Positions 14,599 through 42,366 of a stretch of 48,979 bases of DNA are shown here, in pieces. The position numbers and the translations under genes are program-made. Below the pieces are notes generated by a model, which made no database searches, was not told the DNA's origin, and saw only the letters and a program-made list of their open reading frames with translations. Every line of letters starts with the position of its first letter. Position 1 is the first letter of the stretch. Origin of the DNA: Bacteroidota bacterium (lineage in GTDB: Bacteria; Bacteroidota; Bacteroidia; 2-12-FULL-35-15); the NCBI GenBank assembly GCA_023251835.1, contig JAHEXZ010000032.1, positions 1 through 48,979 of the forward strand, in the 5' to 3' direction.

Positions 14599-14750
14599 TA
14601 TTTTATTGTTTATCTTGTTTATATAAAAAATAGTGCTCAAATTTAGTCTTATTCATAGATTTTGCATTGATTTTTTTATTTAATTTTTGTTATAAATTGT
14701 TTGAAATATCATAAAATTTGCCGATAAAAGCTATATAGTTTATCTTAATA

Positions 14751-15035
14751 ACTCATGTTACGCAAAGGAAAAGATTTAAAAATGATAGACTTTTATACTT
14801 GTAATGGACAAGAGAATTGAAAGAGAGAAGGGTAATTTTCTCAAAAAGACAATAAAAATGACTGCTTTAAAAAATTCATAATCACTACCATTGTCATTTC
14901 GAATCCTGCTGAAAGCAGGAAGAGAAATCTTTGCAATTGATTGACAAGATTTCTCTCCCGCATTTGCGGGATCGAAATGACAGGTGGAAATATCGAGATA
15001 TTCTGAATTAGATATAAATTTTGCGTAACATCAGT
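14751..15035 (+). mobile_element. Miniature inverted-repeat element, copy 1
   Basis: This 285-bp element fills most of the spacer between the thiolase and pgpH genes. Its ends are ACTCATGTTACGCAAA (14751-14766) and TTTGCGTAACATCAGT (15020-15035), inverted repeats with one mismatch. It is flanked by TA on both sides (14749-14750, 15036-15037); the longer direct repeat TAATA also fits. Inside is a second inverted repeat, TGTCATTTCGA...TCGAAATGACA, with small hairpins CCTGCTGAAAGCAGG and CCCGCATTTGCGGG. It has no credible coding capacity and is nearly identical to the copy at 33612-33887. The rest of 14599-15141 is A+T-rich with nothing I can name. Confidence 0.88.
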
Positions 15036-15141
15036 TAATAACTGAAATAAATCCAATTGTTGATACCTCCATATGCAAATCCATAGTTAAAGAGGCAGAC
15101 AGAACTAAATAATTTTTAATTTCGTACTTAAAATAATCTCT

Positions 15142-21320: not shown

Positions 21321-24300
21321 CTACCTCAATAGTGTTACATCGCCACTTTTATGAACTACTTTTCCATTATTTAGTTTAACATACGCTTTCCATACATAAA
21401 CATCTTCCTGACAAAGTTGCCCTCTGTAATAACCATCCCAGCCTTTTTTCACATCCATTGATTCAAAAATTTGCTCACCCCAGCGATTAAAAATTTGTAA
21501 TTTATACTCCACCACTCCTGAAGTGTATGGAAAGAACACATCATTGTTCATATTACCGTCATCGTAAGTGCCACCATTAGCCCCATCTGAGTTGGGCGTA
21601 AATACATTTGGAAAAACAACATCTGCATTTGTTGTTATCTCTGCATAGCTGGTATCCCTGCATCCATACTGAGAAGTAGCTATTAACTGTACCTGGAATA
21701 TATCAACTGTCGTGTAAATATTTTGCGGATTAACCATAGCAGAAGTATTTCCGTCACCAAAATTCCAGTTATAAGCAGTGGCCCCAACCGAGTGACTGGT
21801 GCATACCAATACATCATACGGCAGGTTAAGAGTAGTTGAATTGACTGTAAATACAGCAGTCGGAATCGGGTGAGCCACAACCATGAGTGGAACAGAAGCA
21901 TTGTTGTTTGTGCAACCTCCCGATGTAGTAACAGTTAAAACAACTGAATAAGTTCCGGCTTGCACATAACTGTGAGCAGGGTTTTGCAATGTAGATGAAG
22001 TTCCATCACCAAAATTCCAGTTCCATGTAGTAATTGGGTCTGTATTATTCCCTGTTACAGAATTATCAGAAAACCGAATTATTGCAGGAACACACATTTG
22101 ATTAGTATCGGATGCCAATATTACTGTTGGTGGTGGATTAAAGAGTATGGATACTGAATCCGTAACGGAACTGCCACAAACATTGGTAACGGTTACTGTA
22201 TAAATAGTTGGCTGTGCAGGCGTAATGGTATAAGGCCCTGGTCCACTGCCTAAGTTGTTGCTCCAGGAATATGTTAATGTTCCCGTAACTCCGGAAGTCT
22301 GTACAGACAGCACAGAGCTTTGTCCCCGACAAATTGGAGAAGTACCGGTAACCTGCACATTCGCAGGATTTAGATAATAAACAATAGCAGAAATGGAATC
22401 AGCCGCTCCAATACATCCATATTGGTCTTGTGCAATTACAGTATAAGTAGTAGTACTTGTCGGAGCTACAGTTAATGTTCCTGAATTAGTAACGTTGGAA
22501 GGTTGCCACAAATAAGAATAAATACCACCACCACCGGAAGCAGTGGTAGTCAGCGTTCCTGACTGTCCCAGGCAAATACTATCATTAATGCCTGCCATAG
22601 TTATAACTTGTGAGGGTTGACCAATAGTTGCAGGAATAGCACTATTACAGCCATTAGCATCCGTAACAGTTACGGTATACGTACCTGCATTTAATGTTGT
22701 TGCATTGCTTCCCGTTTGAACCGGAGACGTTGACCAGGCGTATAAATAAGGCGAAACCCCACCGGATAAGGTTATAGAAGCACTTCCATCAGAACCATTA
22801 AAACAGGTTGTACTTATTATTGTATCAATTGTCAGAACAATTTGTGAGGGCTGATTAACAGTTAAAGTATCTGTTGTTGAACATCCGTTAGCATCTGTTA
22901 GAGTTGCGATGTATGTTCCGGCAATAAGCCCTGTTATAGATGCAGTACTTTGCCCATTACTCCATTGATAGGCAAATGGTGAAGCGCCCCCTGATGGATT
23001 TATTGTTGCAGAACCATTATTTTCTCCATTACATGAAACATCTGTATAGGAACCGGTAGATGATATTGCCGGAAACTGTGTAATTGCCACAGTTGCAATA
23101 GTAGTACATCCCATAGCATCGGTGGTTGTTACAGAATAATTACCAACCGGAAGTCCTGATGCCAATGCGGCAGTTTGTCCATCACTCCATAAGTAAGTAT
23201 AAGGTGAAGTTCCCCCGGTAGCAGTAATATTGGCAAGGCCGTTACTTGCTCCTGTACATATATTTGTTTGTACAGCCGTTGATGAAAGTAATGGCGGTTC
23301 AGTAACAAATATAGCAGGCGTTATCACACATCCGTTCATATCGGTTACGGTAACAGAGTAATTTCCCATAGTTAATCCCGTAACTGATGTAGTGGTTTGC
23401 CCGTTGCTCCATAAATAAGTATAAGATGGTGAACCACCTGAAACTATGACCGAAGCTACACCATTGTTTCCTCCAGAACAAGAAACATTTGTTTGAGATG
23501 TAGTAAAAGAAAGAGCTGTTATTGGCTCTGTTATTGATATATAGCCTGTTGTTGTACAAGCATTCGCATCTGTTACAATTACATTATAACTTCCGGCTGT
23601 TAAACCAGAAACGGATGAAGTAGTTGATGAAGTATTCCATTGATAACTATAAGAAGGCGTACCACCCGAAACAGTTATTGATGCAGAACCATTATTGCCT
23701 CCATAACAGGAAACATCAGTTTTTGAAATTGCTATAGTAAGCGCACCTGCGGGTTGTGTAAGCATCACATTTGAGACTGCTATACACCCGTTGGAGTCAG
23801 TCACTGTTACAGTATAATTCCCCGCAAATAGCCCGGTAATATATGAAGTGGTAAGCCCAATGTTCCACTGGTAGGTAAATGGTGCTGTGCCACCCGATGA
23901 AATTACAGAAATAGAACCATCACTGCCCCCATAACATGATACATTGGATTGTGAAGTAGTGGATGTAATAGCAGGGAAAAGTGTAATAGCCACTGTAGAT
24001 ACAGCGGTACAACCTTTTGCATCATTGATTGTTACTGAGTAATTTCCAACTGAAAGCCCGGTTGCTGATGAAGTAGTTTGCCCATCATTCCAAAGATAAG
24101 TGTATGGAGAAGTGCCGCCCATAACCGTAACAGCGGCAATACCATTGCTTGTACCGCTGCATATATTTGTTTGTGTAGCTGATGATGTAAGAGTTGATGG
24201 TTCAGCAATAGAAATAACATCAGATAGTGTACATCCATTACCATCAGTTGTTATTACTGAATAATTCCCGGCTATTAAACCTGTAACAGATGAAGTCACT

Positions 24301-27300
24301 TGTCCATTGCTCCATTGATAGGTGTAAGGCAATGTTCCTCCTGTCACAATTAAAGAGGCTGCGCCATTATTGCCTCCATAACAGGATATATCATTCTTTG
24401 AAACAGAAGACGAAAGCGGTGTTAATGGCTCCGTAATAACAATGGATACTGTTGATATACAATGGTTGGAATCACTGACAATTATACTGTAATTTCCGGC
24501 CGATAAACCTGTAATAAATGATGTAGTTTGTCCATCATTCCACAGATAGGTATATGGAGATGTACCACCCATAGGGAAAACAGATGTTGAACCATCGTTT
24601 CCTCCATAACAGGAAACATTATTTTGTGAGGTAATGGAAGAAAGAACATCAGCGGGTTCTGTAATGGTTACGGAAGCTGGTGTAACGCATCCCTTTGCAT
24701 CAATGGTTGTAACAACATAATTTCCGGCTGTTAATCCGCCAACAGACATACTTGTCTGACCATTATTCCATAAATAAGCATAGGGCTGTGTTCCGCCAGA
24801 TGCACTAACTATAGCAGTACCATTGCTGCCACCATAGCAAGATACATTGCTTTGCGAAATAACAGAAGTTAATGCCTGTGAAGGTTCTGTTATTACAACA
24901 GTAGCTGAACTGTTACATCCTTTATTGTCTGTTACATTTACCGTGTATGTACCTGCGGATAAATTTGTTCCGGTTGGCCCATTTCCTCCCATTGGCAGCC
25001 AGTTATATGTATAAAAAGGTGTACCACCGGTAACGCCTGCTGCTGCTGTTCCATCATTGCCACCCTTACAGCTCACATTGCCTGAAGATAAAATAAAAAT
25101 ATTCAGTTGATTAGGTTGATTGATTGTAAAGCTTTTTGCAAGCACACAACTATTTATATCCATTACCTGAACTGTGTATGTACCTGCTGAAAGGTTGGTT
25201 ACTGAACTGCCGGTGCTTCCACCCTGCAGCCAGGTGTAAGTATATCCGGGTGTGCCACCTGATGCACTCACCGTAGCTGTTCCGTTACTCCCTCCAAAAC
25301 AGCTTACATCTGTTGTTGCAACAGTTAGTGCCAGTGCCGGAGGCTCTGTTATTGGTGGACTTGTAGTAGCTAAAGATTGACATCCGTTAGCATCCGTAAC
25401 GGTAAGCGTATAGATACCTGCTGTTAAACCTGTAGCATTGGGGCTATTGCCTCCATAAGGTAACCAATGAAAAGAGAAAGGTGCTGTTCCACCGGATATT
25501 CCTGCACTGGCAGAACCAGTGGCACCACCATTACAACTTACATTAGTACTGGATATGATAGTTACTGCAGGTGAATTATTATCAATTACATTCATTGATT
25601 TTGAAGTGCTGCAAGCATTAGCATCTTTTACCGATACTGTATATGAGCCTGAATACAAATTTTTAGCAGTATCACTATTGCCTCCGTTTGATGACCATTG
25701 ATACATGTAAGGACTAACTCCTCCTGATACTGAAACATAGGCAATTCCATTGGGTAGACTGCATGTTGAGTTGATTGTCCCAGTCAGCAATGAAATTGCT
25801 GTAGGTTGATTAACATTAACGGAATCAGAAAAAGTACACCCCTTAGAATCCGTTACAATAATTGTATAAGCTCCCGATAATAAACTTGAAACATTCTGTG
25901 TGCTATAGTTTCCCGGGAGCCAGTTATAACTATATGGGCTGGTTCCACCTGATGCTACAGAGGCAACTGTACCATCTTTACTACCATAACAGGATGTTGG
26001 AGTAGAAGATACTGAAACTGAAAGTGCTGAAGCCGGTTGTGTAATTGTAACATTATTTTGTTTCTGGCATCCCTTGTTGTCGGTAACAGTAACCGTATAA
26101 GTTCCGGCTTGCAAACCATTTGTTGAAGCCATTGAAGAACTTCCGGGCATCCATATATAACTATAATTCGGTGTGCCACCAGAGGCATTTGCTGTCACGG
26201 CACCATCGTTTCCGCCAAAACAGCTTACATTACTTTGATTGATAAAGCTAACAGCTAATGCTGAAGGCTGATTTATGGTTACAAAGCCTATTGAGGTACA
26301 CCCTTTGCTATCTGTAACTGTTGCTGTATATGTACCGGCTGCTAAACCCGAAATGCTGCTGGTTGTTTGATTACCAGGCTGCCATAGATAAGAATAACCG
26401 GGAGTACCTCCTGCTGCATTTATAGAAGCAGTGGCATCAGCGCCTCCATAGCAGGATACATTGGTTTGTGCAGTAGTAAAAGATAAAGATGATGCTGGCT
26501 GAGTAATGGTTGCTGATGCAGATATGGTACATCCTTTAGTATCTGTCACTGTTACAGAATACGTTCCTGAAGTTTGCCCTGTTATGGATGAACTACTTTG
26601 ACCATTACTCCATAAATACGTGTAAAATGGTATACCCCCGGTAGCTGAAACAGACATAAAACCATTACTTCCACCATAACAGGAAACATTCGTCTGTGAA
26701 AGAGTAGCATTTAGTATAGTTGGTTGGGTAATGGTAACAGACGCAATAGCGGTACAGCCTTTTGAATCTAAAGTTGTAACAGAATAGCTGCCTGCAGCAA
26801 GACCTGCAGCTGTAACGGTTGTTTGTCCGTTGTTCCAGAGATAAGTATAAGGTGTTGTACCACCGGTAGCAATAACCGAAGCTATACCATTGCTGCCACC
26901 AAAGCAGGATACATTGCTTTGTGTAGTTGATGATGAAAGTGGTGCAGTTGGTTGTGTAATGGATACTGTTGATATTGTTGTGCAGCCTTTAGAATCAGTA
27001 ACTGTAGCAGTATAGCTACCAACTGTCAATCCTGTGGCAGATGAATTAGTTTGTCCATTATTCCATAGATAAGTATATGATGGAGTGCCACCGGTGGCAA
27101 TAACCGTAGCAGAACCATTATTACCTCCATAACAGAAAACGTTACTGAATGAAATAGTAGAAGTTAAGGCCATAGCAGGTTGTATAATAGATACGGAAGC
27201 TGATGTAACGCATCCCTTTGCATCAATGGTTGTAACAACATAATTTCCGGATGTTAATCCGCCAACAGACATACTTGTCTGACCATTATTCCATAAATAA

Positions 27301-30300
27301 GCATAGGGCTGTGTTCCGCCAGATGCACTAACTATAGCAGTACCATTGCTGCCACCATAGCAAGATACATTGCTTTGCGAAATAACAGAAGTTAATGCCT
27401 GTGAAGGTTCTGTTATTACAACAGTAGCTGAACTGTTACATCCTTTATTGTCTGTTACATTTACCGTGTATGTACCTGCGGATAAATTTGTTCCGGTTGG
27501 CCCATTTCCTCCCATTGGCAGCCAGTTATATGTATAAAAAGGTGTACCACCGGTAACGCCTGCTGCTGCTGTTCCATCATTGCCACCCTTACAGCTCACA
27601 TTGCCTGAAGATAAAATAAAAATATTCAGTTGATTAGGTTGATTGATTGTAAAGCTTTTTGCAAGCACACAACTATTTATATCCATTACCTGAACTGTGT
27701 ATGTACCTGCTGAAAGGTTGGTTACTGAACTGCCGGTGCTTCCACCCTGCAGCCAGGTGTAAGTATATCCGGGTGTGCCACCTGATGCACTCACCGTAGC
27801 TGTTCCGTTACTCCCTCCAAAACAGCTTACATCTGTTGTTGCAACAGTTAGTGCCAGTGCCGGAGGCTCTGTTATTGGTGGACTTGTAGTAGCTAAAGAT
27901 TGACATCCGTTAGCATCCGTAACGGTAAGCGTATAGATACCTGCTGTTAAACCTGTAGCATTGGGGCTATTGCCTCCATAAGGTAACCAATGAAAAGAGA
28001 AAGGTGCTGTTCCACCGGATATTCCTGCACTGGCAGAACCAGTGGCACCACCATTACAACTTACATTAGTACTGGATATGATAGTTACTGCAGGTGAATT
28101 ATTATCAATTACATTCATTGATTTTGAAGTGCTGCAAGCATTAGCATCTTTTACCGATACTGTATATGAGCCTGAATACAAATTTTTAGCAGTATCACTA
28201 TTGCCTCCGTTTGATGACCATTGATACATGTAAGGACTAACTCCTCCTGATACTGAAACATAGGCAATTCCATTGGGTAGACTGCATGTTGAGTTGATTG
28301 TCCCAGTCAGCAATGAAATTGCTGTAGGTTGATTAACATTAACGGAATCAGAAAAAGTACACCCCTTAGAATCCGTTACAATAATTGTATAAGCTCCCGA
28401 TAATAAACTTGAAACATTCTGTGTGCTATAGTTTCCCGGGAGCCAGTTATAACTATATGGGCTGGTTCCACCTGATGCTACAGAGGCAACTGTACCATCT
28501 TTACTACCATAACAGGATGTTGGAGTAGAAGATACTGAAACTGAAAGTGCTGAAGCCGGTTGTGTAATTGTAACATTATTTTGTTTCTGGCATCCCTTGT
28601 TGTCGGTAACAGTAACCGTATAAGTTCCGGCTTGCAAACCATTTGTTGAAGCCATTGAAGAACTTCCGGGCATCCATATATAACTATAATTCGGTGTGCC
28701 ACCAGAGGCATTTGCTGTCACGGCACCATCGTTTCCGCCAAAACAGCTTACATTACTTTGATTGATAAAGCTAACAGCTAATGCTGAAGGCTGATTTATG
28801 GTTACAAAGCCTATTGAGGTACACCCTTTGCTATCTGTAACTGTTGCTGTATATGTACCGGCTGCTAAACCCGAAATGCTGCTGGTTGTTTGATTACCAG
28901 GCTGCCATAGATAAGAATAACCGGGAGTACCTCCTGCTGCATTTATAGAAGCAGTGGCATCAGCGCCTCCATAGCAGGATACATTGGTTTGTGCAGTAGT
29001 AAAAGATAAAGATGATGCTGGCTGAGTAATGGTTGCTGATGCAGATATGGTACATCCTTTAGTATCTGTCACTGTTACAGAATACGTTCCTGAAGTTTGC
29101 CCTGTTATGGATGAACTACTTTGACCATTACTCCATAAATACGTGTAAAATGGTATACCCCCGGTAGCTGAAACAGACATAAAACCATTACTTCCACCAT
29201 AACAGGAAACATTCGTCTGTGAAAGAGTAGCATTTAGTATAGTTGGTTGGGTAATGGTAACAGACGCAATAGCGGTACAGCCTTTTGAATCTAAAGTTGT
29301 AACAGAATAGCTGCCTGCAGCAAGACCTGCAGCTGTAACGGTTGTTTGTCCGTTGTTCCAGAGATAAGTATAAGGTGTTGTACCACCGGTAGCAATAACC
29401 GAAGCTATACCATTGCTGCCACCAAAGCAGGATACATTGCTTTGTGTAGTTGATGATGAAAGTGGTGCAGTTGGTTGTGTAATGGATACTGTTGATATTG
29501 TTGTGCAGCCTTTAGAATCAGTAACTGTAGCAGTATAGCTACCAACTGTCAATCCTGTGGCAGATGAATTAGTTTGTCCATTATTCCATAGATAAGTATA
29601 TGATGGAGTGCCACCGGTGGCAATAACCGTAGCAGAACCATTATTACCTCCATAACAGGAAACATTATTCTGTGTAGTAGTTGAGGCAGGAGCAAGATTA
29701 ATAATTACAGATACAGTTCCGGCAGGGCGAGGACAACCACCTACTGTTGCAGTAACGGAGTATGTTCCGGCACTTGCAGCAGTTACATTAGTAATAACAG
29801 GGTTTTGCAAAGTAGAAGAAAAACCATTTGGACCCAACCAGCTATAGCTTGCTCCAGAGATAGTATTTGCCGAAAGTGTCAATGAATTTCCAACACAAAC
29901 CGGGCTATTACTGCCTGCTATAGGGGCAACAGGAATTGAATTAACTGTAACTGTAACAAATGCAGGGCCGCCAGGACAGCTTCCATTCATAGCTGTTACG
30001 CCATACGTTGTAGTTACCGTAGGTGTGGCAATCGGAGTTGGAGATGTTGGGTTATTTAAACCTGCAGTGGGTGACCATTGATAAGTAGCACCAGCCGGTC
30101 CTGTTACACTTAACTGTACTTGTTGTCCCTGACAGATAATGGCATTAGGACTTGTTGAAATTGCAAAGGCAGTTGGCCTCTTAGCAGGAATCAATGCGGC
30201 ATTAAGGTAAATCCTTCCGGAATTAACCAATTCTATATTGTTAAAATCAGCAGCACCTCCCAGATATTGATGCCCTCCCATATAAAACACATTACCACCA

Positions 30301-31319
30301 ATGGCATCAGAAGTTAATTTAGAGCATGAAACAACAACTGTATCATGCGAATTTTGAGTACTTACCGCGTAGTAATGTCCATTTCTCCACGAGGAGCCTG
30401 GTGCTAATCTCCAGTTTTTTCCAGAACCGTTCTGATTTGCCTTCATCAATCCATGAAATTGCATAATAGCCATATCAGGATTATAATAACTGTTGGAGGT
30501 AGTATTTATTCCAATTTCAGTAAAACCATTGGTTGTTTGGATTTTCATATTCGCTTCATATCCATCTGTACCGGCTTGAACAGCGTGACATTGCGAAAAA
30601 AAATTTCCTCCACTGTAAATAAAATTAATGGGCTGTTTCATAATTGCTGTATCATTAATATCAGAAGCCCAGTGAGCTTCTGAACAGAAGGTATAGCATT
30701 CGGAAAGGCCGGTGAACACTCCTGCTGAAATTACTGTATAGTTACTTATTCCTGCATAGTTTAGGATTATCGTATGAATATTTTGGTTCCCACCATTATT
30801 GAATACTGCTATCTTAGGTCGCTGGTTAAGAGTGTATCTTACATCCACTGTAACATTTTGAGTTAAACGGTAAACGGCTACATTTCCCCCAAAGGCAGCT
30901 ATAATTTGAGAAGCCGTTTGTCCCCAATTCGAGTAGGGTGTTTTATTAATCCAGGTACTGTCGATAATAAATGCACTGGCACGAAAATCCTGCATAGAAG
31001 CAACAAGAGCTGAGGGGTAAACTCTTTCTACGGTTGCAGAAAAATCTATCCCATCTTTTAATTTACCTGACCTTATCACCCATTTTACTGGTATATCATT
31101 TTGAAGAAGCGCATTAACAAGACCATAAGCTTTAAGATTAAAAGGCTGTGGAGGGGTTAGGTTTTGGTGTGCATTATCCATCGGGATAACCAATGAACCA
31201 AGAGGAATGGTTTCGAGATGTGCAGGCGGGTTAGGTAAATCATTTGCTTGTGCTGCCGATTTCACAACAGCCATAGAAAAGAACAATAGAAAAATAATAT
31301 ATTCGTATATTTTCCGCAT
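21321..31319 (-). CDS. Giant SprB-repeat cell-surface protein, T9SS type B sorted
   Basis: A 3332-residue secreted protein, probably a surface adhesin. Layout: signal peptide (about 1-24); an unassigned N-terminal domain (about 25-385); two Ig-like modules (about 390-545); about 31 SprB-type repeats of about 76 residues (about 550-2900), each built on NVSCYGGSNG...GGTPxYxYLW...GTYTVTVTDxxGC; Ig-like modules (about 2910-3070); two PKD domains (WNWNFGDGTSS, YNWNFGDGNTS); and the gliding-motility C-terminal domain (FPNVFTPNSDG, IFNRWGEQIF, GDVTLLR). SprB repeats occur in the motile adhesin of gliding flavobacteria; no gliding genes are in this window, so a motility role is not shown. An 11-repeat block is present twice. 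One uninterrupted frame of 10 kb argues that the gene is intact. Confidence 0.93.
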   Translation of the reverse strand: MRKIYEYIIFLLFFSMAVVKSAAQANDLPNPPAHLETIPLGSLVIPMDNAHQNLTPPQPFNLKAYGLVNALLQNDIPVKWVIRSGKLKDGIDFSATVERVYPSALVASMQDFRASAFIIDSTWINKTPYSNWGQTASQIIAAFGGNVAVYRLTQNVTVDVRYTLNQRPKIAVFNNGGNQNIHTIILNYAGISNYTVISAGVFTGLSECYTFCSEAHWASDINDTAIMKQPINFIYSGGNFFSQCHAVQAGTDGYEANMKIQTTNGFTEIGINTTSNSYYNPDMAIMQFHGLMKANQNGSGKNWRLAPGSSWRNGHYYAVSTQNSHDTVVVSCSKLTSDAIGGNVFYMGGHQYLGGAADFNNIELVNSGRIYLNAALIPAKRPTAFAISTSPNAIICQGQQVQLSVTGPAGATYQWSPTAGLNNPTSPTPIATPTVTTTYGVTAMNGSCPGGPAFVTVTVNSIPVAPIAGSNSPVCVGNSLTLSANTISGASYSWLGPNGFSSTLQNPVITNVTAASAGTYSVTATVGGCPRPAGTVSVIINLAPASTTTQNNVSCYGGNNGSATVIATGGTPSYTYLWNNGQTNSSATGLTVGSYTATVTDSKGCTTISTVSITQPTAPLSSSTTQSNVSCFGGSNGIASVIATGGTTPYTYLWNNGQTTVTAAGLAAGSYSVTTLDSKGCTAIASVTITQPTILNATLSQTNVSCYGGSNGFMSVSATGGIPFYTYLWSNGQSSSSITGQTSGTYSVTVTDTKGCTISASATITQPASSLSFTTAQTNVSCYGGADATASINAAGGTPGYSYLWQPGNQTTSSISGLAAGTYTATVTDSKGCTSIGFVTINQPSALAVSFINQSNVSCFGGNDGAVTANASGGTPNYSYIWMPGSSSMASTNGLQAGTYTVTVTDNKGCQKQNNVTITQPASALSVSVSSTPTSCYGSKDGTVASVASGGTSPYSYNWLPGNYSTQNVSSLLSGAYTIIVTDSKGCTFSDSVNVNQPTAISLLTGTINSTCSLPNGIAYVSVSGGVSPYMYQWSSNGGNSDTAKNLYSGSYTVSVKDANACSTSKSMNVIDNNSPAVTIISSTNVSCNGGATGSASAGISGGTAPFSFHWLPYGGNSPNATGLTAGIYTLTVTDANGCQSLATTSPPITEPPALALTVATTDVSCFGGSNGTATVSASGGTPGYTYTWLQGGSTGSSVTNLSAGTYTVQVMDINSCVLAKSFTINQPNQLNIFILSSGNVSCKGGNDGTAAAGVTGGTPFYTYNWLPMGGNGPTGTNLSAGTYTVNVTDNKGCNSSATVVITEPSQALTSVISQSNVSCYGGSNGTAIVSASGGTQPYAYLWNNGQTSMSVGGLTSGNYVVTTIDAKGCVTSASVSIIQPAMALTSTISFSNVFCYGGNNGSATVIATGGTPSYTYLWNNGQTNSSATGLTVGSYTATVTDSKGCTTISTVSITQPTAPLSSSTTQSNVSCFGGSNGIASVIATGGTTPYTYLWNNGQTTVTAAGLAAGSYSVTTLDSKGCTAIASVTITQPTILNATLSQTNVSCYGGSNGFMSVSATGGIPFYTYLWSNGQSSSSITGQTSGTYSVTVTDTKGCTISASATITQPASSLSFTTAQTNVSCYGGADATASINAAGGTPGYSYLWQPGNQTTSSISGLAAGTYTATVTDSKGCTSIGFVTINQPSALAVSFINQSNVSCFGGNDGAVTANASGGTPNYSYIWMPGSSSMASTNGLQAGTYTVTVTDNKGCQKQNNVTITQPASALSVSVSSTPTSCYGSKDGTVASVASGGTSPYSYNWLPGNYSTQNVSSLLSGAYTIIVTDSKGCTFSDSVNVNQPTAISLLTGTINSTCSLPNGIAYVSVSGGVSPYMYQWSSNGGNSDTAKNLYSGSYTVSVKDANACSTSKSMNVIDNNSPAVTIISSTNVSCNGGATGSASAGISGGTAPFSFHWLPYGGNSPNATGLTAGIYTLTVTDANGCQSLATTSPPITEPPALALTVATTDVSCFGGSNGTATVSASGGTPGYTYTWLQGGSTGSSVTNLSAGTYTVQVMDINSCVLAKSFTINQPNQLNIFILSSGNVSCKGGNDGTAAAGVTGGTPFYTYNWLPMGGNGPTGTNLSAGTYTVNVTDNKGCNSSATVVITEPSQALTSVISQSNVSCYGGSNGTAIVSASGGTQPYAYLWNNGQTSMSVGGLTAGNYVVTTIDAKGCVTPASVTITEPADVLSSITSQNNVSCYGGNDGSTSVFPMGGTSPYTYLWNDGQTTSFITGLSAGNYSIIVSDSNHCISTVSIVITEPLTPLSSSVSKNDISCYGGNNGAASLIVTGGTLPYTYQWSNGQVTSSVTGLIAGNYSVITTDGNGCTLSDVISIAEPSTLTSSATQTNICSGTSNGIAAVTVMGGTSPYTYLWNDGQTTSSATGLSVGNYSVTINDAKGCTAVSTVAITLFPAITSTTSQSNVSCYGGSDGSISVISSGGTAPFTYQWNIGLTTSYITGLFAGNYTVTVTDSNGCIAVSNVMLTQPAGALTIAISKTDVSCYGGNNGSASITVSGGTPSYSYQWNTSSTTSSVSGLTAGSYNVIVTDANACTTTGYISITEPITALSFTTSQTNVSCSGGNNGVASVIVSGGSPSYTYLWSNGQTTTSVTGLTMGNYSVTVTDMNGCVITPAIFVTEPPLLSSTAVQTNICTGASNGLANITATGGTSPYTYLWSDGQTAALASGLPVGNYSVTTTDAMGCTTIATVAITQFPAISSTGSYTDVSCNGENNGSATINPSGGASPFAYQWSNGQSTASITGLIAGTYIATLTDANGCSTTDTLTVNQPSQIVLTIDTIISTTCFNGSDGSASITLSGGVSPYLYAWSTSPVQTGSNATTLNAGTYTVTVTDANGCNSAIPATIGQPSQVITMAGINDSICLGQSGTLTTTASGGGGIYSYLWQPSNVTNSGTLTVAPTSTTTYTVIAQDQYGCIGAADSISAIVYYLNPANVQVTGTSPICRGQSSVLSVQTSGVTGTLTYSWSNNLGSGPGPYTITPAQPTIYTVTVTNVCGSSVTDSVSILFNPPPTVILASDTNQMCVPAIIRFSDNSVTGNNTDPITTWNWNFGDGTSSTLQNPAHSYVQAGTYSVVLTVTTSGGCTNNNASVPLMVVAHPIPTAVFTVNSTTLNLPYDVLVCTSHSVGATAYNWNFGDGNTSAMVNPQNIYTTVDIFQVQLIATSQYGCRDTSYAEITTNADVVFPNVFTPNSDGANGGTYDDGNMNNDVFFPYTSGVVEYKLQIFNRWGEQIFESMDVKKGWDGYYRGQLCQEDVYVWKAYVKLNNGKVVHKSGDVTLLR
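24729..27135 (-). repeat. Long tandem duplication inside the giant gene, 3' copy
   Basis: This 2.4-kb segment matches 27252-29658 at a constant offset of 2523 bp (841 codons, 11 SprB repeats). In every stretch I compared the two are identical at DNA level, including third codon positions. Similarity fades quickly outside, with the first mismatches at 24728 and 27136. Confidence 0.9.
27252..29658 (-). repeat. Long tandem duplication inside the giant gene, 5' copy
   Basis: The partner of 24729-27135. It encodes SprB repeats 1-11, and the other copy encodes repeats 12-22. Outside the block the repeats are diverged from each other, so this is a recent unequal exchange or conversion rather than selection for identical repeats. 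Confidence 0.9.
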
Positions 31320-31880: not shown

Positions 31881-31968
31881 TGGCGGAGAAAGAGGGATTC
31901 GAACCCCCGGTGGTGTTACCCACAACAGTTTTCAAGACTGCCGCATTAGACCGCTCTGCCATTTCTCC
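31881..31968 (-). tRNA. tRNA-Ser (anticodon UGA)
   Basis: The minus strand folds as a class II tRNA of 88 nt including an encoded CCA. The acceptor arms are GGAGAAA and TTTCTCC with discriminator G. The anticodon stem is GCAGT/ACTGT with loop CTTGAAA, giving anticodon UGA (32-34 of 319xx, reading UCA and related serine codons). A long variable arm (GTGGGTAACACCAC) and the T arm with GGTTCGAATCC are present. The large variable arm and anticodon agree on serine. Confidence 0.96.
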
Positions 31969-33611: not shown

Positions 33612-33887
33612 ACTCATGTTACGCAAAGAAAAAGATTTAAAAATGATAGACTTTTATACTTGTAATGGACAAGAGAATTGAAAGAGAGAAGGGTGATTTT
33701 CTCAAAAAGACAATAAAAATGACTGCTTTAAATAATTCATAATCACTACCATTGTCATTTCGAATCCTGCTGAAAGCAGGAAGAGAAATCTTTGCAACTG
33801 ATTGACAAGATTTCTCACTGCGTTCGAAATGACAGGTGGAAATATAGAGATATTCTGAATTAGATATAAATTTTGCGTAACATCAGT
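33612..33887 (+). mobile_element. Miniature inverted-repeat element, copy 2
   Basis: A 276-bp element with the same ends as copy 1, ACTCATGTTACGCAAA and TTTGCGTAACATCAGT, flanked by TA at 33610-33611 and 33888-33889. It differs from copy 1 by few substitutions and a roughly 9-bp deletion in the right inner arm, where CCCGCATTTGCGGGAT is replaced by a shorter ACTGCGT stretch. It fills the spacer between the T9SS-protein gene and the persulfide-dioxygenase gene and ends 20 bp before the latter's ATG, so the promoter of that gene must lie in or very near the element. Confidence 0.88.
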
Positions 33888-33907
33888 TATAAATAATCTA
33901 TACACTA

Positions 33908-40170: not shown

Positions 40171-42366
40171 TTATACTCTGACTCCAATCACACAAATATC
40201 ATCCACCTGTTCTAAACCGGCTTTCCAATTTTCAATAAAATCGTTTAAATACTGCTGTTGCTCCTGCAGTGTTTTTTGTTGAATGGAGAGAAGTATTTCT
40301 TTAAATTTTTTTGTCATCAGTTTTTTTCTGTTTTCACCGCCAAATTGGTCGGCATAACCATCTGTAAAAATATAAAAGGTATCGCCTTGTTGCAATTGTA
40401 TTTCATGGGTTTCAAAATGGGCATCATCAGGTGTAAGCCCGCCTATAGCTTTTTTAGTTGCTTTTATTTCTATTAGTTCTGTTTGACCTTTTCTGACAAA
40501 CCAAAGAGGGCGGTTTGCTCCGGCATATTGCAACTTCATCGTTACTTTGTCAAAAATACAATAAGCAATATCCATCCCATCACGACTTTGGGAATCTGTG
40601 AGCTGCTGTTTTAATGATAGTTTTACTAATCTGTTCAAATGACTTAATATGCCAGATGGGTTATTCCACTGATGCTTATGAAAAATTTCATTCAATAAAA
40701 CCGTTCCGATAAGACTCATAAAGGCTCCAGGAATACCATGGCCAGTGCAATCTACAGCCACAAAAAACAATTTATTATCCAGTTTTTCCAACCAGTAAAA
40801 ATCCCCGCTCACCACGTCACGCGGTTTGTATAAACTAAATGAATCCGTCCACAAATCTTGTATTTTAAAGAGAGGCAAAACCGAATCTTGTATGTGTTTT
40901 GCATATGCAATGCTTTGACCTATTTCGTGATTTTTTTCATCTACTAATTCTTTTTGTTTTTCTACCTCTGCTTTTTGTTGGGTAATGATAACATTTGCAG
41001 TTTGTTTTTGCCTGTAGCTTCTGAAAATAAAAAGAGCAAGCAACAAAACAAGCCCAAAACCAATGATAAAATAATTGCGCTGCAAGCGTTGATGTTTTAG
41101 TTCTTCTACAGCAATAGCATCCTTTTTATCTTGTTCAGCTTTTTCCTTTGCTTGTTTTGTTTCAAACTCAAAATTCATTTCGGAGCGAACTATTTTTTTT
41201 GTGTTTTCTTCATTAAAAAGGCTGTCTTTTGCTGCTATATATTTTTTGTAATGTTCTAGTGCTTTGTCGGGTTGGTGAGTTTGGGTGTAGAGTTCGGCCA
41301 TGGAATTTTCTAATCGCATTGTAAAGTCCAATAACCCAATGCTGTCGCAGCGTGTCAGTGCTCTTTGCAAATATTCTTTGGCTTGTTTGTATCTTTTTGT
41401 TTCAGTGTAAAGCAAACCTATGTTGCCAAGGTGACGGGTAATTTCATTTTTATCTCCCAACTCTTCCGCCATTTTCAACGCCTTGAAATAATGGTCTAAT
41501 GCTTTTTTGTACAAGGAATCAGCACCGGCAATATCTTGCGGAAACTTCGCTGCGTTCGCTTGGTCATTATAGCAAGCTCCGATGCTTCCGATGGTGACAG
41601 CAATTGCATATTTATTTCCTAACTCTTCCGCCATTTTCAATGCCTTGAAATAATAGTCCAATGCTTTGGTATAGTCGCCTTGGTTAGAATAGATATCCCC
41701 GATGTTGCTAAGGTTCAATGCAATTGTATTTTTATTTCTCAACCCTTCGGCTATTTTCAATGCTTTAAAATAATAGTCCAATGCTTTTGGATAATCGCCC
41801 TGAGCCTTATAGATAAGTCCGATGTTGCCAAGTATTGCGGAAATTCCTTTTTTATCTTCCAATTCTTCTGCCATTTTTAATGCTTTGAAATAATAGTCCA
41901 ATGCTTTAGTATGGTCGTCTTTGTGATCGTAAGCAACTCCAATGTTACCGAGTATTACCGAAATTCCTTTTTTGTCATTTAATGATTCCATTATTTTAAG
42001 AGCTTTGAAACAATAGTCAAGAGCAAGAGAGTTGTTGCCTTTGAAAAGATGAAGCGTTCCAAGATTAGAATAGGATTTTGAAATGAAACGCATCCTCACA
42101 TCTTTCCCAATGGAAGGTGGAAGGTACTCTGCTATATTCAGTGCTTGAGTAATTAGTATAATTGCGGTATCAGGGTTATTATTTTTAAGTTTTTTAGCGA
42201 GCGCATTGAGTGTATTTATTCGGCTGGTGTCGTGGAGGCAGTTTGTATAAAGCAGGGAACGCAGGGAATCAATGGTTGGGCCTCGCTCGCCACCTGTTTT
42301 ATCTTGTTGAGCAAGAGAGGTGAACCAGCAAAGGAAAATCGCAAATAGTAGAAAAAAATATTTCAT
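40171..42366 (-). CDS. TPR-repeat sensor with SpoIIE/PP2C-type phosphatase domain
   Basis: A 731-residue membrane-anchored signalling protein. A signal peptide (MKYFFLLFAIFLCWFTSLAQ) leads to an extracytoplasmic series of about eight TPR motifs (about 50-390), several nearly identical (KALDYYFKALKMAEELGNK). A single membrane helix (YFIIGFGLVLLLALFIF, about 432-450) and a coiled coil (QQKAEVEKQKELVDEKNHEIGQ) connect to the cytoplasmic phosphatase (about 500-731). PP2C/SpoIIE metal motifs are DVVSGDFYW, VDCTGHGIPGAFMS, DGMDIAYCIF, IFTDGYADQFGG and the terminal VDDICVIGV. It should dephosphorylate a Ser/Thr-phosphorylated anti-sigma antagonist or similar partner; no partner is adjacent. One repeat carries an insertion (NDQANAAKFPQDIAGAD). 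Confidence 0.92.
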   Translation of the reverse strand: MKYFFLLFAIFLCWFTSLAQQDKTGGERGPTIDSLRSLLYTNCLHDTSRINTLNALAKKLKNNNPDTAIILITQALNIAEYLPPSIGKDVRMRFISKSYSNLGTLHLFKGNNSLALDYCFKALKIMESLNDKKGISVILGNIGVAYDHKDDHTKALDYYFKALKMAEELEDKKGISAILGNIGLIYKAQGDYPKALDYYFKALKIAEGLRNKNTIALNLSNIGDIYSNQGDYTKALDYYFKALKMAEELGNKYAIAVTIGSIGACYNDQANAAKFPQDIAGADSLYKKALDHYFKALKMAEELGDKNEITRHLGNIGLLYTETKRYKQAKEYLQRALTRCDSIGLLDFTMRLENSMAELYTQTHQPDKALEHYKKYIAAKDSLFNEENTKKIVRSEMNFEFETKQAKEKAEQDKKDAIAVEELKHQRLQRNYFIIGFGLVLLLALFIFRSYRQKQTANVIITQQKAEVEKQKELVDEKNHEIGQSIAYAKHIQDSVLPLFKIQDLWTDSFSLYKPRDVVSGDFYWLEKLDNKLFFVAVDCTGHGIPGAFMSLIGTVLLNEIFHKHQWNNPSGILSHLNRLVKLSLKQQLTDSQSRDGMDIAYCIFDKVTMKLQYAGANRPLWFVRKGQTELIEIKATKKAIGGLTPDDAHFETHEIQLQQGDTFYIFTDGYADQFGGENRKKLMTKKFKEILLSIQQKTLQEQQQYLNDFIENWKAGLEQVDDICVIGVRV

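Follow-up and report, generated by a model that had tools for sequence, protein, structure and literature searches.

The window, a stretch of 48,979 nucleotides from a Bacteroidota bacterium (contig JAHEXZ010000032.1), contains a giant gene made up mostly of SprB-type repeats. The gene and its domains are arranged as follows.

21321–31319, minus strand: giant SprB-repeat gene, 3,332 aa (open reading frame list, Pfam and translation)
30100–31250, minus strand: N-terminal domain, about 370 residues (alignment of 10 sequences)
22608–29657, minus strand: array of 31 SprB units of 66–78 residues (unit parse)
21891–22139, minus strand: PKD domain (PF18911, by Pfam)
21360–21614, minus strand: CHU_C type IX secretion C-terminal domain (PF13585; 32.8 bits, cut-off 27)

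The SprB family (Pfam PF13573) matches the gene product in 29 stretches with an E value of 1.4e-299 (965.8 bits against a cut-off of 28). A profile made from the units themselves finds 33 domains in the same frame compared with the 31 parsed, and the count is therefore slightly method-dependent. AlphaFold modelling of units 1–4 predicts beta-sandwiches (the best of five models has a pLDDT of 89, the other four are near 32). The solved structures nearest to the SprB units are parts of GhpA, the Aureispira grappling hook protein (PDB 9flp, 9flw and others), with a fold E value of 6.8e-12 and a profile E value of 2.5e-13. It should be pointed out that this likeness is confined to the repeat domains, and it implies neither hook assembly nor a predation role for the protein encoded in the window.

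The N-terminus is hydrophobic and signal-peptide-like, as judged by eye from the translation. PKD domains score above the Pfam cut-offs, and at the C-terminus, in addition to CHU_C, the NCBI type B sorting model TIGR04131 scores 33.7 bits, slightly below its cut-off of 35. The gene product is probably a type IX-secreted adhesin held at the cell surface. PorP/SprF carrier genes are absent from the contig of the giant gene (C103), and 17 score above cut-off genome-wide; the carrier could be encoded elsewhere in the genome. SprB of Flavobacterium johnsoniae is a giant adhesin of 6,497 aa that leaves the cell through the type IX system (PMC9870892; PMC12635249). The window protein resembles it as a giant Bacteroidota adhesin whose repeats belong to the Pfam family named after SprB. 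It differs in that its contig lacks a PorP/SprF carrier, and the likeness is one of repeat family and protein type.

The architecture is that of an N-terminal domain carried by a stalk made up of Ig-like SprB units. Nine relatives of the N-terminal domain align with it at 35–85% identity, and a Pfam search of the domain gave no family above cut-off. The structural model has a pLDDT of 55, and its fold matches, of a flavodoxin/amidotransferase-like alpha/beta type, are weak. The domain is common to varied giant surface proteins of Bacteroidota. Its position at the distal tip of the stalk suggests that it binds something.

Two neighbouring features may be mentioned. A tRNA-Ser (TGA) gene lies directly upstream of the start of the giant gene (31881–31968, minus strand), and a tandem array of 120-bp repeats, with copies about 75% alike, is found within another open frame at 41600–42018.

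The doubled block and its edges

A large part of the SprB array is present twice. The segments concerned, in the order in which the gene is read, are these.

27252–29658, minus strand: copy 1 of the block, 2,407 bp, units 1–10 and most of unit 11 (exact match to copy 2)
27204–27250, minus strand: 47-bp extension of copy 1, past a mismatch at 27251
27136–27203, minus strand: J1, the 68-bp junction patch between the copies
24729–27135, minus strand: copy 2 of the block, 2,407 bp, units 12–21 and most of unit 22 (exact match to copy 1)
24681–24727, minus strand: 47-bp extension of copy 2, past a mismatch at 24728
24613–24680, minus strand: J2, the 68-bp patch after copy 2
22608–24611, minus strand: units 23–31, present once; an older, weak 4-unit period is seen here and also in the relative described below

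The two copies are identical at all 2,407 bases with an offset of 2,523 bp, and the window has no other long self-match. The initial annotation had placed the block at 24729–29658, and these coordinates are exact. It had also described 841 residues and 11 repeats present twice with the same DNA; the period is indeed 2,523 bp, or 841 codons, and comprises 11 SprB units, but the strictly identical portion is only 802 residues. Beyond the single mismatch at 24728/27251 the copies agree again at 47 of 47 bases (24681–24727 and 27204–27250). Identity then ends sharply, with dense mismatches from 27136 upward and from 24680 downward, in keeping with the abrupt edges reported earlier. Thus 2,407 + 47 of the 2,523 bp of one full period are identical and a 68-bp patch is diverged. 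The DNA identity between units 11 and 22 is 89%.

Other units of the array are very different from one another. Without the eleven doubled pairs, the remaining 454 unit pairs have a mean DNA identity of 54% and a maximum of 68%, which bears out the observation that individual repeats differ strongly. Fourfold sites mismatch in 64% of cases on average in these pairs, while between copies 1 and 2 none of the 462 fourfold codons in the ten full unit pairs differs; silent-site divergence between the blocks is therefore quite unlike that between other repeats, a likeness that the initial annotation had named as evidence against a recent event. Taken at face value, the absence of any difference in 2,407 bases limits divergence to about 0.12% at most (95% bound). 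Chance as the source of the doubling is excluded by the exact 2,407-bp match, compared with at most 68% identity among other pairs.

The junction patches are more difficult to account for. J1 and J2 are identical at 44 of 68 positions, and J1 is unlike both the lead-in to copy 1 and the exit from copy 2. In a single unequal crossover, each base at the junction derives from one of two known sides. One clean unequal crossover is thus rejected, given the 24 mismatches between J1 and J2 in 68 bases. Because J1 matches neither side, a second event, two different parents, or two strains' versions of one place must be considered. A donor for either patch was not found above 49/68 among the sequences compared, and the organism's own genome has no close copy. 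The best match to J1 outside the window (47/68) is the linker of unit 11 in G002, a genome of the same genus; J2 matches this linker at 46/68, and its best match elsewhere is 49/68.

The same-genus ortholog and the direction of change

The N-terminal domain was searched for at E <= 1e-30 in 36 genomes of the genus, the window's own included, and is present in two of these: the window's own genome and G002 (JAURXZ). The G002 ortholog has 20 SprB units in a single block and 2,491 residues after two contig ends are joined. The gene is split across the ends of contigs C21 and C44, which share an exact 96-bp overlap that occurs whole only at these two ends in the G002 genome. When units 12–22 are removed from the window array, the remainder is collinear with the 20 units of G002, with a mean diagonal identity of 0.688 compared with a maximum of 0.551 in 2,000 permuted orders, and 17 of the 20 units have their best match on the diagonal. 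The window array is thus the 20 units of G002 plus 11, collinear without copy 2, which points to a doubling that arose in the window lineage.

The G002 contig break coincides with the boundary of units 11 and 12, the same place as the duplication junction in the window; with the join and the break at this point, the G002 array could conceal a second copy. The flanks of the giant gene in G002 are not syntenic with those in the window but represent a different neighbourhood, and shared neighbours therefore could not confirm that C21 adjoins C44. Three more distant orthologs (L085, L086 and L062) are insufficiently collinear to inform the direction of change.

Assembly and explanations of the doubling

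The genome is assembled in 171 contigs. Runs of N, five of 100 and one of 10, are found in the stretches examined; 13 of 71 contig ends examined sit in exact repeats of 50–121 bp; the 16S gene detected starts mid-gene at a contig start and is truncated; and two contigs (C100 and C39) begin within a dispersed element of about 280 bp. Exact overlaps among the 71 contig ends were not found. On the basis of the N runs, the contig ends in repeats, the truncated 16S and the breaks at repeats of about 50–280 bp, the assembly looks like short-read scaffolds. Contigs break at such short repeats, yet the 2,407-bp repeat is crossed twice, and this counts against the duplication.

The element of about 280 bp is of interest in itself. 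It is intergenic, contains an inner hairpin between inverted ends of 22 nt that are 91% complementary, and looks like a MITE. Copies in the window lie at 14745–15041 and 33621–33889, and with these included at least 41 places in the genome match at E below 1e-50 with 87–100% identity, a lower bound from the scoring of 40 of 115 candidates.

Short-read assemblers merge near-identical copies. The perfect identity over 2.4 kb may therefore be partly imposed, the number of turns around such a loop is uncertain, and the block may be present in two or more copies. Merging is less to be expected for differences close to the edges, and one such difference is present, at 24728/27251.

These properties raise the question of whether the doubling is an assembly loop from a mixture of strains. 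The true gene would then have 20 units, J1 and J2 would be two strains' linkers after unit 11, and a stretch common to unit 1 and to one strain's unit 12 would have sent the assembler round the block twice. The short-read signs (the N runs of 10 and 100, the 13 of 71 contig ends in repeats and the truncated 16S) are in line with this. So is the form of J1 and J2, which resemble alternative continuations of unit 11, with one mismatch, 47 identical bases and then divergence; moreover, the G002 unit-11 linker is the closest match there to J1 (47/68) and nearly equally close to J2 (46/68). Such a loop, however, requires that units 12 and 1 share an identical stretch no shorter than the assembler's word length, and units 1 and 12 of the G002 ortholog are clearly unlike each other. 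In addition, a search of the bin revealed no alternative branch of the array. An assembly artefact of this kind is considered unlikely. Still less probable is an older duplication that was homogenized by recent gene conversion and whose 68-bp patches are remnants of older divergence. Dense divergence does adjoin perfect identity, and the patches J1 and J2, adjacent to the block, are only 44/68 identical, as might be expected of such remnants. However, conversion must span all 2,407 bp, the patches differ as distinct repeat linkers do and not as aged copies do, and the same-genus relative has one block.

A genuine duplication through recent recombination is therefore favoured, and the doubling is best read as the product of unequal homologous recombination. 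In full, the probable course of events is a recent tandem duplication of units 1–11 by homologous recombination in a type IX-secreted adhesin. An ancestral array of 20 units, as in the same-genus ortholog, would have been extended to 31 by tandem duplication of units 1–11. Most probably, misaligned sister arrays recombined homologously where a unit begins with the conserved Cys-Tyr-Gly-Gly, and the 68-bp patch at one junction may have been replaced in a second exchange or through recombination between slightly different strains. The earlier proposal of recent unequal crossing-over or conversion thus stands with respect to a recent event, given the single-block ortholog of 20 units and the absence of differences in 2,407 bases, but one crossover leaves the 68-bp patch unexplained.

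Adhesin length and possible growth by blocks

The direct repeat of 2.4 kb is predicted to be prone to recombination, with alleles of 20, 31 or 42 units that would shorten or lengthen the stalk. Variation of adhesin length in the population, with altered surface reach, was proposed in the initial annotation and is a prediction; the length difference seen so far is between species (20 and 31 units, one genome per species).

Variable length is already known for repetitive adhesins (PMC8201768), as is the problem of assembling repeats (PMC6868369). In the Periscope proteins Sgo_0707, SasG and Rib, the length of the surface-protein stalk follows the number of folded repeats, and recombination between identical DNA is the cause proposed (PMC8201768). 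Their stalks are described there as tandem, highly similar domains. In the window gene, by contrast, adjacent repeats are not near-identical in DNA: no pair of neighbours, and indeed no undoubled pair of units, exceeds 68% identity, and only the 11-unit block is repeated. The adhesin Ilm of Yersinia ruckeri has many Ig-like repeats whose number varies by strain, a variation visible only in long-read genomes (PMC6868369). What recurs there is a single unit of about 300 bp with the same DNA sequence each time, in contrast to the 11-unit block of the window. What is distinctive in the window gene is that the duplicated unit is a block of 11 mutually diverged neighbours. The phrase ‘SprB repeat-containing protein’ was not found in the limited collection of literature searched, nor was a paper there that brings together most of the themes of SprB, repeats, copy number variation, metagenomes, type IX secretion and tandem duplication.

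Other SprB arrays were surveyed in 51 stretches besides the window (L062–L072 and L085–L124), 40 of which were picked mostly for long frames or SprB clusters and are a non-random sample. Among 36 open reading frames that contain six or more SprB-type units, the longest exact repeat is the 2,407 bp of the window and the next is 122 bp. Most repeats of this kind would disappear from short-read assemblies, and their absence elsewhere is thus weak evidence of rarity. Unit order is non-random in 13 of 29 arrays with at least 10 units (nominal p <= 0.01, 300 shuffles); the peak lag is 1 in seven of these, 4 in five and 11 in the window. A 4-unit period is therefore present in 5 of the 28 SprB arrays other than that of the window. 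Within the giant gene, a lag-4 peak is found in units 23–31 (p 0.01) and in the corresponding units 12–20 of G002 (p 0.002, order permutation), although whole arrays are non-significant (p 0.19 for the window without copy 2 and 0.165 for G002). A cluster of giant SprB-repeat genes is also found in G002 (contig C34, about 236–296 kb, L113–L115), and one of these genes has 42 units with a clear 4-unit higher-order period.

Judging from the 4-unit periods in one section of the giant gene and in 5 of the other 28 arrays, SprB arrays seem to have grown by multi-unit blocks repeatedly, and the window appears to be a fresh example. Perhaps, as a tentative and rather doubtful extension, the array functions as a two-tier length switch, in which diverged neighbours are combined with a perfect 2.4-kb block through which homologous recombination would gain or lose eleven units per step, and stalks of 20, 31 and 42 units would occur within one population. 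Divergence of neighbours should then help folding, and the older 4-unit periods of this and other SprB arrays would be what remains of previous steps in blocks.

The findings carry a warning that draft metagenome assemblies may give wrong unit counts for arrays of this type. If the duplication is real, giant Bacteroidota adhesins grow through the copying of blocks of diverged repeats, a process that spares the protein identical neighbouring domains while offering recombination a long and perfect target.
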